Below are positions 3,611 through 10,435 of a stretch of DNA of 64,000 nucleotides, one piece after another. Source of the stretch: Candidatus Poseidoniaceae archaeon (lineage in GTDB: Archaea > Thermoplasmatota > Poseidoniia > Poseidoniales > Poseidoniaceae); assembly GCA_028353405.1 (NCBI GenBank), contig JAOMOG010000003.1:1-64000 (forward strand), given 5' to 3'. Made by a program: the position numbers and the translations under genes. The first letter of the stretch is position 1. Each line of letters opens with the position of its first letter. Below the pieces are notes generated by a model, which worked only from the letters and a program-made list of their open reading frames with translations, searched no databases and was not told the DNA's origin.

Positions 3611-6361
3611 TCATTCTTCGTCTTCACGACGTGTCGTGAAAATGAATCCTATAGCGATTGCAGCAATAGTTCCAACAACTCCGATTGCAGGTAATCCTCC
3701 ACCGGAGCTACTGCCACTACTCATGATGAGAATTGACATTGTTCCAGTATTTCCATTGACAGTTCCATCAAAGGCTGTGACTGTGCATGTGATAAAGTCA
3801 GCAGTTGCGTATCCAGAAGACAATGTATCCGTGGTCGCACCAGGGACTGCAACGCCATTTATCGACCACTGAATCAGTGAAGCATCAGGATCCATATCTG
3901 GGTCGCTATATGTGTAAGAACAAGTCAGTGTATCGGTTTCAATTGGTGATGGTGGCGTGATTAATACATTGGAGACCGATGGTGCAGTGTTGTTAGCAGG
4001 TTGAACAAAATAATATCTATTCATGGTGTTTCCTTGAGCCATTCCATCATGTGCAATCGCTTCACAGTGGACAATATCGCCAACAACAAAACTGCCTGCA
4101 GGAATAATATTATTCAAAATGCCAGTACTGATTTGGACGTTGTTAACATTCCAAGTAAAAATCGATTGATCAGGGTCGTTATCAGGATCGCTGTAGGTTG
4201 CACCTTGAGCGTAACAATCCAGTGCATCGCCAGAATAGGCAACAGGAATCTGTAGCGTGTACGAGATAGTAGGTGGGGAATTTACTGCAGTACCTGTGAT
4301 GGTGAAACACGTTGTTCCACCGTTATCCGTAAGGAAGACATTCGCCTCATACAAATTAGCTAATACACAATAATCACCTGGACCAAGTCCAGTAAAGGTA
4401 TCGTAGAAGTTGATGTTGATAGAATTTGCAACCCAAGTGTACATTCCCGAAAGAACATAATTGGATGAACCAACTTCAAAGACATAATACTCCAAGGTAT
4501 AATCAGCACCCGTACGAGTACAATTTACGTAGAATGTTGCATCTTGGTCATCTCCATTTGCATAAGTAGAAGCGTCCATCCAACTCCAAACTTGTGTGTA
4601 TGAACTATTCAAGCCACAAGGGTCGAGAGGGGTGCTTCCTCCACCACCGCTGCTATTCCCAGTCACTGTGAAACATGTGACTTCAAAATCAACGAATTGA
4701 TATGCTCCGCCACTAACCATGTAGAGTGTTGCGTTGACACAATAAGTTCCTTGTGCAAGGTTACTCCAGGAATCATCCATTGACTCATGGGAATCGGTTT
4801 CAGTCCAATTCCATACTGAGAAATCACTCCATGCCCCGCCACTAGTAGAATATGCAAAGACATGTAATTCGTAATCTTTGGTGTTAACACTACAATTGAC
4901 ATAGTAATCTGAATACACCGTTGTTCCTTGCGGATAACTTTGTGCATCGGTCCAAATCATCAAGTCGGTCATTGAAGGGTCATTACCGCACGTAAGCACT
5001 GTATAATTCTCTGTAACAGGAGTCATTGTCATCAAGACAGTTCCACTGTTTTGGAAGGTTAAAGCAGTTACGAATGCAGTTGGATCGTTCGGGTCAAGCA
5101 TTTCAGAAGCTTCAATTCCGCGGATTGACATTCGTTCTACAGGTGTTGAGAAGGTGTAAGGAACACCTCCGTCAATGTCAATATTTGAATCATACCAACC
5201 ATTAGTTCCGTAAAAATACAAATCAAACACATCATCTCCATAGCCCAATGGAATTTCGACAGAAACAATGGAAGGTCCGCTGTAAACAACATAATCATAA
5301 CCAACTGCGACCACAGGATCAATCCAAACTGAAACTCCAGATTGGTTAAAGAAGAACCAGAATGAATTGGTTTGATTCCAACAATCATCAATAGTTACAT
5401 TTGAAGGACCGGCATCCCAATTAATCTGTGAACAGTTAACAGGCATTATTGGGTTTGTTTGATTGTTACCGGCAGTGTTGTTACCACCGGTGTTATTGCC
5501 GCCAGTATTGTTGCATCCGACTTCAATATTGTAATAGAAAGGACTGTTTGAAAACAAATTGCCCAATCCTGAATCTGCTGGATTAAGCATCACAGTGTAC
5601 ACTCCAGTATTGAGTGCAGAGGAATTGAACGTCCACGTGTAGGACACCGTTCCATTTGAGTTTACACTGATTAGTGGGCTTCCAGAAGCAACAATAGTTG
5701 AGCCACTTGTAATCTCCCATTCAAGATAGAATTCGGTTGCATTGAGTCCGTTGATGTTCATGAAGATTTCAATATCTTCTGCCGTGCTAAAACAATACTG
5801 AAGTTGATATGCATTGTAGGTCATTTGATTGCTGTTGTTACCGCCAGTATTGTTACCACCGGTATTGTTGCCTCCAGTATTGTTACCACCGGTGTTGTTA
5901 CCTCCAGTATTGTTACCGCCACTTGAGAAGAAAGCGCAATCATGGTTCCCATCATTATCTGCGTCATAGATGTTGGTTGATGCATTTGAATCACTCACTT
6001 CCAACGAATCATTCAATCCATCTCCATCATCGTCAATGTCAGATTCATCGTTAATGCCATCGCCATCAAAATCCAGTGGGGAGCTATCGTTTGAATCAGG
6101 AATACAATCGTTATCATCATCCGAATCAAGGTTGTTAACAACTCCGTCTCCATCGTTGTCATTGCTGCCATTGTAAGTTTGGTTGTTCAGAATAGATTGT
6201 TGCTGTGTATCTGTAAGGACGCCTACTGAGCGTGCCCCTGATTCAAGCACAGGTCCCTGCCAGGAATCCTCATCGGATTGAGACGGTATTTGAGCAAATC
6301 CATTTGATAGAATCTGTACAAAAAGTAAAATTGCAATCATTGTTATTGACGTCTTTTGCAT
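3611..6361 (-). CDS. Secreted surface protein with thrombospondin-type-3-like Ca-binding repeats, GGNNT repeats and short C-terminal membrane anchor
   Basis: Signal peptide; DNDGDGVVNNLDSDDDNDCIPDSNDSSPLDFDGDGINDESDIDDDGDGLND; (GGNNT)n; C-term LPAIGVVGTIAAIAIGFIFTTRREDEE. Confidence 0.8.
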   Translation of the reverse strand: MQKTSITMIAILLFVQILSNGFAQIPSQSDEDSWQGPVLESGARSVGVLTDTQQQSILNNQTYNGSNDNDGDGVVNNLDSDDDNDCIPDSNDSSPLDFDGDGINDESDIDDDGDGLNDSLEVSDSNASTNIYDADNDGNHDCAFFSSGGNNTGGNNTGGNNTGGNNTGGNNTGGNNSNQMTYNAYQLQYCFSTAEDIEIFMNINGLNATEFYLEWEITSGSTIVASGSPLISVNSNGTVSYTWTFNSSALNTGVYTVMLNPADSGLGNLFSNSPFYYNIEVGCNNTGGNNTGGNNTAGNNQTNPIMPVNCSQINWDAGPSNVTIDDCWNQTNSFWFFFNQSGVSVWIDPVVAVGYDYVVYSGPSIVSVEIPLGYGDDVFDLYFYGTNGWYDSNIDIDGGVPYTFSTPVERMSIRGIEASEMLDPNDPTAFVTALTFQNSGTVLMTMTPVTENYTVLTCGNDPSMTDLMIWTDAQSYPQGTTVYSDYYVNCSVNTKDYELHVFAYSTSGGAWSDFSVWNWTETDSHESMDDSWSNLAQGTYCVNATLYMVSGGAYQFVDFEVTCFTVTGNSSGGGGSTPLDPCGLNSSYTQVWSWMDASTYANGDDQDATFYVNCTRTGADYTLEYYVFEVGSSNYVLSGMYTWVANSININFYDTFTGLGPGDYCVLANLYEANVFLTDNGGTTCFTITGTAVNSPPTISYTLQIPVAYSGDALDCYAQGATYSDPDNDPDQSIFTWNVNNVQISTGILNNIIPAGSFVVGDIVHCEAIAHDGMAQGNTMNRYYFVQPANNTAPSVSNVLITPPSPIETDTLTCSYTYSDPDMDPDASLIQWSINGVAVPGATTDTLSSGYATADFITCTVTAFDGTVNGNTGTMSILIMSSGSSSGGGLPAIGVVGTIAAIAIGFIFTTRREDEE
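5465..5516. repeat. 15-bp tandem repeat encoding (GGNNT/A)n, minor block
   Basis: attgttaccggcagtgttgttaccaccggtgttattgccgccagtattgtt; translates NNTGGNNTGGNNTAGNN. Confidence 0.75.
5834..5920. repeat. 15-bp tandem repeat encoding (GGNNT)n, major block
   Basis: tgttaccgccagtat/tgttaccaccggtat/tgttgcctccagtat/tgttaccaccggtgt/tgttacctccagtat/tgttaccgcc. Confidence 0.9.
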
Positions 6362-8197: not shown

Positions 8198-9622
8198 TCA
8201 TTCTTTCTTAGGATGTGGGCGGCTGCGAGGTTTCTTTGAATCTTGTTCTTCCTCACGCATTGCTTGAAGTTCACGATTAGATTTTACAGGTTTTCCATCT
8301 CCGCCCTTGGCAGCATGAGAACTCTTTTTCCCACCTTGTGCAATATCGACTTTGATTTTCCGGCCCATCAATTCAGAACCGTTCATCTTAGCAACGATCT
8401 CTTCACCTTTGTCACCTTCAGCTATCCAAATAAATGCGAATCCCTTTGGCTTGCCTGTGTTTTTATCAGTTGCCAAAACCATTCCATTAACGGTTGCAGT
8501 TCCCTCAAAGTGCTTTTTAATGGCATCTTCAGTTGCTTTGAATGGTAGATTTCCAACATATACTTTAGTTCCTTCAGGGTCTTTTCTCTTGTTATTTCCC
8601 TTCTTGCTATCATCATCAGCATCCTTTACAGCAATTCTACGGCCACTAATTTTGTGGCTATTTAGGGCGCTGATTGCAGCGGTTGCTTCATCCTTGCTTG
8701 AGAATGTAATGAATCCGAATCCTTTGTTAGCAGTTCCATCACCAGCAGGTAAGAAACAATCTTTGACAACTCCGTGTTTTTCAAACAAATCTCTTATCTG
8801 CTCGGTTGTAACATCTCTTGGTAGTCCACCGATGAATAAACGAGTTCCAGGTGCAGGCTTATCACGACGTCCTCCAGCGCTACCACCTTCACCTTCAAAT
8901 CGGAAGTAACTTTTTTCACGACCGTCTTCACGAACATCAGCAGCAATGAATGTTGCACGACCTGATGGCCCCTTTGCGAATAATGTTTCAGCTTGCTTAC
9001 CCCATCTTTTTCCAGGGTTATTTAGAGCACTTGCGCCTGTTTCAAGTTCAGCCCATCCAGCAGCAAAATTATCTGCTAATGCTCTGAAAGATTGATAGTC
9101 ACAATTTGGACACTTTACATTCCAATCTCCATTTAGTTCAGCGATTAATGTACTTCCACAAGGAGGGCAGATAGCGTGTAATACTCCACAATCATTTCTA
9201 TCTCTAAAACTGATGCTGACCACTGGTGAAACCCGCTTGACTTCTGCACGGCAGATATCTCTGCGGCGAACAGCATCACTTGTTTGATGCATGTAGCGAT
9301 CAACCAAATCAGTGACACGGAATTGACCATATAATTGGTCGGGAGTTATACTACCAGTTTGCCCTTCAATAACGAGGATTTGCGCTTCCCCATTTTTCTC
9401 ATTCAATCGAGTAATTTCACAAATGACAGTATCACCAATACTAACGCTGTTAACCATCTTTGTCGCTGCGACTGAACCGATACCCTCAGCGATTGAAAAT
9501 TGTCCAATAACTGTGGAAATAATCGTTCCATCTCTTTCAATAGTGCCTTCACCAGCCTCACATTCTGAGGTGGTTGACACTTGCATTCCCGGGGTGACGA
9601 GGCTCGCCGTCATTTTTATCAT
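8198..9622 (-). CDS. Exosome subunit Csl4 (N-term + S1 + zinc ribbon) fused to two RRM domains
   Basis: N-term VTPGMQVSTTSECEAGEGTIERDGTIIST, S1-like middle, CPPCGSTL...CPNCDY zinc ribbon typical of Csl4; RRM1 RLFIGGLP...KGFGFITF; RRM2 KVYVGNLP...KGFAFIWI; basic tail. Start possibly M4 at 9613. Confidence 0.88.
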   Translation of the reverse strand: MIKMTASLVTPGMQVSTTSECEAGEGTIERDGTIISTVIGQFSIAEGIGSVAATKMVNSVSIGDTVICEITRLNEKNGEAQILVIEGQTGSITPDQLYGQFRVTDLVDRYMHQTSDAVRRRDICRAEVKRVSPVVSISFRDRNDCGVLHAICPPCGSTLIAELNGDWNVKCPNCDYQSFRALADNFAAGWAELETGASALNNPGKRWGKQAETLFAKGPSGRATFIAADVREDGREKSYFRFEGEGGSAGGRRDKPAPGTRLFIGGLPRDVTTEQIRDLFEKHGVVKDCFLPAGDGTANKGFGFITFSSKDEATAAISALNSHKISGRRIAVKDADDDSKKGNNKRKDPEGTKVYVGNLPFKATEDAIKKHFEGTATVNGMVLATDKNTGKPKGFAFIWIAEGDKGEEIVAKMNGSELMGRKIKVDIAQGGKKSSHAAKGGDGKPVKSNRELQAMREEEQDSKKPRSRPHPKKE

Positions 9623-9757: not shown

Positions 9758-10435
9758 TCATTCAGTATCATCAATCTCTTCAATTGGTATTTTAGAATTA
9801 CCAGGTCGATGGAATCTCCAGCAAATAATATCGGTGAAAGCCTTGCCTTTGGAGTGATGTGAATAGGTTGGTGGTAGACGGAATTTACTTTCTAATACAC
9901 CTTCAATCTCCCATCCATGCTCTTTTGCAAGAGATTCTAAATGAGTTGCTTTTGCAGAATGTAATACATGAATCGATTCAACATCTAGCCCAAATGCATA
10001 TTGCAATATTGCACGGTCTGCCCGTTTACTTTGAACTCCCCATGGTGGATTCATTACGATAATATCTACATCGGAAACATCGATCGCATCAATGCCTACA
10101 AATGCTTCAATTACAGTTGTTGATGCAGAAAATTTAGATTTCAGATTTTGACAATTCTTTCTCGCAATTTCTGCAGCGAGTGGATCTGCCTCAACCAATG
10201 TGATTTTTCCAGCTCCGATGAAAAGACAGCCTAAACCCAATATCCCATTTCCAGCACATAAGTCCAGTACATGTTTCCCGTCAACATTGTCTAATTGGTC
10301 AACACCTAGCATCCAATAGGCTGCTAAGTCGCCCTCTGTTGCGTATTGCTCAAGTTCAACATTTGAGCATGGATGAGGAATCAATTTTGACAATTCAATT
10401 GCCAGATGCTTTGGCCGCATCATTTTATTCACCAA
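9758..10435 (-). CDS. METTL5/COG2263-like RNA adenine-N6 methyltransferase
   Basis: VLDLCAGNGILGLG SAM motif I; IIVMNPPWGVQSKRADRAIL N6-MTase NPPW motif. Confidence 0.75.
   Translation of the reverse strand: MVNKMMRPKHLAIELSKLIPHPCSNVELEQYATEGDLAAYWMLGVDQLDNVDGKHVLDLCAGNGILGLGCLFIGAGKITLVEADPLAAEIARKNCQNLKSKFSASTTVIEAFVGIDAIDVSDVDIIVMNPPWGVQSKRADRAILQYAFGLDVESIHVLHSAKATHLESLAKEHGWEIEGVLESKFRLPPTYSHHSKGKAFTDIICWRFHRPGNSKIPIEEIDDTE

Follow-up and report, generated by a model that had tools for sequence, protein, structure and literature searches.

Near the start of contig JAOMOG010000003.1 from a Candidatus Poseidoniaceae archaeon, one gene appears to join Csl4, a cap subunit of the RNA exosome, to two RRM domains. 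Is this a genuine fusion, how far does it extend among related archaea, and what might RRMs do on the exosome cap? We addressed these questions by analyzing the window, a stretch of 64,000 nucleotides that contains the gene, together with genomes from the same order and phylum.

The csl4-RRM gene and its product

Positions 8198-9622 on the minus strand hold a single ORF of 474 aa with no internal stop (Table 1). The sequence-only reading had described it as Csl4 followed by two complete RRMs, and its coordinates and motifs proved correct. The N-terminal part was identified as Csl4 by two profiles: the NCBIfam Csl4 equivalog NF034126 scored 94.3 bits (cut-off, 90) over residues 8-186, which map to C23:9065-9601 of the organism's own genome, and the Pfam domain ECR1_N (PF14382) scored 34.5 bits (cut-off, 27). 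A Csl4 match over the cut-off is thus present in the first ~185 residues, the stretch on which that reading had staked its assignment. In a phmmer comparison, the first 190 residues aligned end to end with Archaeoglobus fulgidus Csl4 (2ba1_A; E 2.9e-12). Translation may start at Met4 (9613) rather than Met1 (9622), because Met4 alone is invariant in relatives and Met1 is not kept in all of them.

The C-terminal part contains two stretches matching Pfam RRM_1 (E 9.5e-37), with the RNP motif pairs LFIGGL/KGFGFITF and VYVGNL/KGFAFIWI. All six RNP aromatics are invariant in the alignment of relatives from the window's family. The Rbp-type equivalog domain NF058537 (cut-off, 100 bits) gave 104.9 bits for the whole protein, a value that is the sum of the two RRMs. 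The AlphaFold model had a mean pLDDT of 63 and a pTM of 0.37 and is usable for single domains alone; residues 1-40 and the regions between domains are of low confidence, and no geometry can be read from them. A fold search with this model matched tandem RRMs in the PDB, such as those of Sxl, HuD, CUGBP1 and hnRNP A2/B1.

Table 1. Features of the csl4-RRM locus (positions in the window unless a locus is named)
Feature	Position	Strand	Remarks
csl4-RRM fusion gene	8198..9622	-	474 aa; Met1 at 9622; Met4 at 9613, conserved start candidate
Csl4 proper: N-terminal ECR1_N-like domain, S1-like domain, zinc ribbon	9065..9601	-	residues 8-186; NF034126 and ECR1_N matches
Zinc ribbon (CPPC...CPNC)	9101..9169	-	residues 152-174; Cys152/155...Cys171/174; four Cys invariant in window's family
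Conserved linker (LN..GKRWG..AE..F..G..GRATFIAADVREDG)	8888..9037	-	residues 196-245; common to other Poseidoniales family, absent in plain Csl4
RRM1	8633..8839	-	residues 262-330; RNP aromatics F263, F302, F304 invariant
RRM2	8351..8563	-	RNP aromatics Y355, F395, F397 invariant
Basic tail	8201..8335	-	mostly low confidence (probably disordered), short predicted helix; from alignment and predicted model
RsmD/PrmC-like methyltransferase	9758..10435	-	upstream of csl4; neighbour of csl4 across phylum
Radical SAM protein with C-terminal helix-hairpin-helix	6397..8172	-	directly downstream of csl4; conserved neighbour within order
Second-family example locus with treble-clef zinc finger	L099:949-2214	-	TIGR04272/zf_Tbcl_2

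Distribution of the fusion in Poseidoniales and across the phylum

Relatives were found in 287 of the 319 Poseidoniales genomes searched, covering all 22 genera. In the window's family (11 genera), more than 100 genomes have homologues that cover nearly the whole protein in one open frame and are 98 to 38% identical to it, and chance is therefore excluded. No Poseidoniales genome examined encodes the two halves separately, the arrangement that would have spoken against the sequence-only reading. We regard an assembly or gene-calling artefact that joins two genes as a negligible prospect: the same fusion recurs in these separately assembled genomes, including the single-contig genome G035, where it is a 496-codon open frame, and nothing was found in favor of an artefact or a frameshift. 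Two apparent irregularities were also traced. Flags for internal TGA codons in genera g5 and g11 arose because the search reads through the normal stop codons, which lie close to the end of the match, and a 579-aa form (L071) reflects a stretch of masked N bases within the gene rather than an insertion.

The fusion occurs in two forms, Csl4-RRM-RRM in the window's family and Csl4-zinc finger-one RRM in the other Poseidoniales family. This second family, which we take to be Thalassarchaeaceae (MGIIb), encodes at the same locus one protein of ~410-450 aa in which Csl4 and the same linker are followed by a zinc finger, a single RRM and a basic, RG-rich tail. All 15 second-family proteins scanned have a single RRM and, between it and Csl4, a CxxC-x17-CxxC treble-clef finger (TIGR04272 / zf_Tbcl_2). 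The three RNP aromatics of this RRM are invariant in the alignment, and the first member of the family scored 80.2 bits with NF058537. RG-rich segments lie on either side of the RRM in the second family and in g11, a divergent genus of the window's family; they are short or absent in most window-family genera. When profiles of the two forms were compared (E 5e-74), Csl4, the linker (LN..G.RW...AE) and the last RRM aligned. Both forms have the linker and plain Csl4 lacks it, which argues for a C-terminal extension older than the split of the two families, and the module was most likely fused to Csl4 in the ancestor of the order. A tree of the RRMs (80 columns, long branches) placed the window-family RRM1 sequences in one group and did not separate RRM2, the second-family RRM and the stand-alone RRMs; it therefore supports no claim of either a single capture with later duplication or two captures.

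The class also includes a sister family, presumably marine group III, which has a plain Csl4 of 182-214 aa without an RRM; eight of its nine genomes carry one separate RRM protein each (85-105 aa where read). Most Csl4 open frames among the top matches listed from elsewhere in Thermoplasmatota are ~185-220 codons long. In our 392-genome sample, the RRM form of Csl4 was seen only in Poseidoniales, and the listed RRM matches from beyond the order sit in short separate frames. Beyond the class, 238 Thermoplasmatota genomes were sampled and RRMs were present in only 16 of them, which bears out the earlier remark that they are uncommon in archaea. Within the order, RRM_1 matches were detected in 82 of the 86 window-family genomes sampled (two per genome in 78 of the 82) and in 58 of 59 of the second family (one per genome in 57 of the 58), and the places listed fall in frames of Csl4 length or at truncated contig ends. 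The RRMs of Csl4 are thus essentially the only RRMs in Poseidoniales genomes. Five genomes without an RRM (G051, G057, G117, G125 and G260) are also those with no Csl4 match or a weak one, as expected if one locus is absent from an incomplete assembly.

The Csl4 part itself is divergent, scoring 94 bits with NF034126 against about 170-206 bits for the best-scoring other Thermoplasmatota; among 22 genomes tested, Csl4 was over the curated cut-off in 17 and just below it in five. Three loci of other Thermoplasmatota (L115, L117 and L121) have RGG-rich Csl4 tails behind the zinc ribbon, which are independent candidate RNA-binding additions at the position of the Poseidoniales module. Candidate RNA-binding elements thus appear to have been added to Csl4 more than once, and its C-terminus seems to be a place to which RNA binders have repeatedly become attached.

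Csl4, the exosome core and DnaG

One Csl4 per genome was found in the 20 Poseidoniales genomes inspected, with a second fragment at a contig end in G279. Additional profile hits in these 20 genomes were Rrp4 or weak S1-type matches, and a second, plain Csl4 was accordingly rejected. The Rrp4-Rrp41-Rrp42 cluster was present in 20 of 20 genomes tested (C17:6204-8091 in the organism's own genome). Besides Rrp41 and Rrp42, this genome encodes an extra bacterial-type RNase PH at G000:C1:101500-104500 (L178:710-1537, minus strand; TIGR01966, 236.9 bits; cut-off, 141.5); a third RNase_PH match was detected in all 17 Poseidoniales genomes tested and in none of three other Thermoplasmatota tested.

For the second-family model, the top PDB fold match was archaeal Csl4 (2ba1_A; E 2.5e-14), followed by Csl4 chains of eukaryotic exosomes. 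The methyltransferase-csl4 neighborhood is kept from Poseidoniales to distant Thermoplasmatota, and the fusion sits at this ancestral locus. Elsewhere in the window, positions 3611-6361 (minus strand) encode a protein of 916 aa that is probably located at the surface and has Asp-rich repeats of the calcium type as well as GGNNT repeats in tandem. The Poseidoniales protein shares its ECR1_N-like and S1-like domains and its zinc ribbon with archaeal Csl4 of A. fulgidus (AF_0206; PDB 2ba1/3m7n) and Sulfolobus solfataricus, and archaeal Csl4 is likewise single copy, with a methyltransferase neighbor and the core subunits present. It differs in being ~290 residues longer, owing to the linker, two RRMs or a zinc finger plus one RRM, and the basic tail, and in its more divergent Csl4 part.

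The sequence-only reading had further taken archaeal Csl4 to be the subunit that selects RNA substrates. This does not agree with the published S. solfataricus exosome, in which Csl4 has no poly(A) preference of its own but is required to dock DnaG, and the poly(A) preference is conferred by DnaG and Rrp4 (PMC4227792). There, Csl4 is anchored to the ring via its N-terminal domain, and DnaG brings RNA via its own N-terminal domain and needs its C-terminal region to bind the Csl4 exosome (PMC4227792).

DnaG was present in 22 of 22 genomes tested (loci L182-L203; G000:C7:20207-21361 in the organism's own genome), with its N-terminal and TOPRIM parts intact. Given its presence in all of them, we rejected loss of DnaG as the cause of the fusion; only its C-terminal region is divergent. 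That region has 20-31% identity to an outgroup, compared with 47-52% for the rest of the protein, and the Asp of the outgroup F/M-D-G motif is lost in 18 of 18 Poseidoniales. The C-terminal regions of sister and outgroup DnaG are likewise less conserved (34% and 54%), and the divergence is therefore only a hint that docking of DnaG on Csl4 may have changed in Poseidoniales. If partners have been rewired in this way, the RRMs might bind a protein such as DnaG, the ribosome or the methyltransferase instead of RNA. We consider such a docking role improbable: the RNA-contact aromatics of all RRMs are invariant, as RNA binding predicts, and the DnaG divergence may reflect only a faster evolution of Poseidoniales in general.

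Proposed role of the C-terminal module

A laboratory construct offers a parallel in layout. In the engineered Csl4-NT, the N-terminal RNA-binding domain of DnaG was placed on the C-terminus of Csl4; the fusion bound poly(rA), and the exosome that contained it was the fastest on poly(rA) and A-rich RNA (PMC4227792). The Poseidoniales Csl4-RRM shares this layout, with RRMs in place of the DnaG domain: in both, an RNA-binding or putatively RNA-binding addition is C-terminal and the ring anchor is left free. Unlike Csl4-NT, the Poseidoniales fusion is natural and order-wide.

The invariance of the RNP1/RNP2 RNA-contact aromatics in all aligned RRMs, combined with the Csl4-NT-like layout, makes a built-in RNA-capture arm the most likely function. 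We propose that the protein is probably the sole Csl4 of the Poseidoniales RNA exosome, with an appended C-terminal module that captures RNA and feeds the phosphorolytic core. The Csl4 N-terminal domain would anchor it on the Rrp41/Rrp42 ring, its S1 and zinc-ribbon domains would be placed in the cap, and the conserved linker would carry two RRMs (window's family) or the treble-clef zinc finger, one RRM and RG-rich tail (other family). These RRMs would grip single-stranded RNA and concentrate it locally at the cap, from where the 3' end of the held RNA would be fed into the phosphorolytic core, a task that falls in Sulfolobus to the DnaG docked on Csl4. From sequence comparison, we predict that the protein assembles into the exosome, binds RNA and affects decay or tailing.

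How selective such an arm would be is a separate matter. Tandem RRMs with intact RNP motifs resemble the motif-recognizing Sxl, HuD and hnRNP A1/A2, and the module is constant across the order; on these grounds, the two RRMs might read a defined motif and send chosen mRNAs or processing intermediates to the exosome, as the sequence-specific recruiter proposed from the DNA alone would do. We think this unlikely. The RRMs are generic, Rbp/hnRNP-like domains with intact RNA-contact aromatics; their sequence reveals no target motif, the general Rbp type is a close match among prokaryotes, and a fixed motif shared with the other family, which has one RRM, a zinc finger and an RG tail, is improbable. 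The Rbp type is known in cyanobacteria for cold-inducible proteins, and the match to NF058537 would also suit an RNA chaperone, in which the RRMs melt or hold structured RNA (e.g., rRNA fragments, in cold sea water) and keep the exosome from stalling without choosing its substrates. The RG-rich segments beside the RRM in the second family and in g11 point the same way, but they are short or absent in most window-family genera, and chaperone activity is not something that can be inferred from sequence. Such a role strikes us as a minority possibility, slightly better placed than motif-specific recruitment.

Besides the RNA-capture arm, we put forward tentatively, at somewhat less than even confidence, a broader scenario: in the last common ancestor of Poseidoniales, the only RRM protein may have become part of the exosome cap and may have stayed there in all descendants, giving a dedicated RNA-targeting exosome in which Csl4 would have taken over substrate choice from DnaG. 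Single-RRM proteins of the Rbp type in bacteria and archaea (NF058537) have the same RRM type and RNP motifs, as does the sister family's 85-105 aa RRM protein; these stand alone, whereas in Poseidoniales the RRMs are fused to Csl4 and no stand-alone copy was seen in the genomes tested. Eukaryotes have RRM-bearing adaptors, such as RBM7 in the NEXT complex, that deliver RNA to the exosome. The fusion might be their natural archaeal counterpart, built into the core complex; RBM7/NEXT-type adaptors are separate and helicase-linked, whereas the Poseidoniales RRMs lie inside a cap subunit, and the likeness is likely convergent.

Csl4 and the RRM are each known. In the open-access literature searched, we found no report of a natural Csl4-RRM fusion. 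Substrate choice by the archaeal exosome is poorly known, and the fusion links RRM function to this complex by comparative genomics alone, as a Rosetta-stone argument. Given that it is fixed across the order, RRM proteins that stand alone in related archaea may likewise work together with the exosome. The module lends itself directly to testing: a laboratory version of this design altered exosome activity (PMC4227792).

These findings suggest that the RNA-decay machine of Poseidoniales carries its own substrate-catching arm. Poseidoniales are among the commonest archaea of the surface ocean, and the fusion therefore bears on RNA turnover in a major group of plankton.
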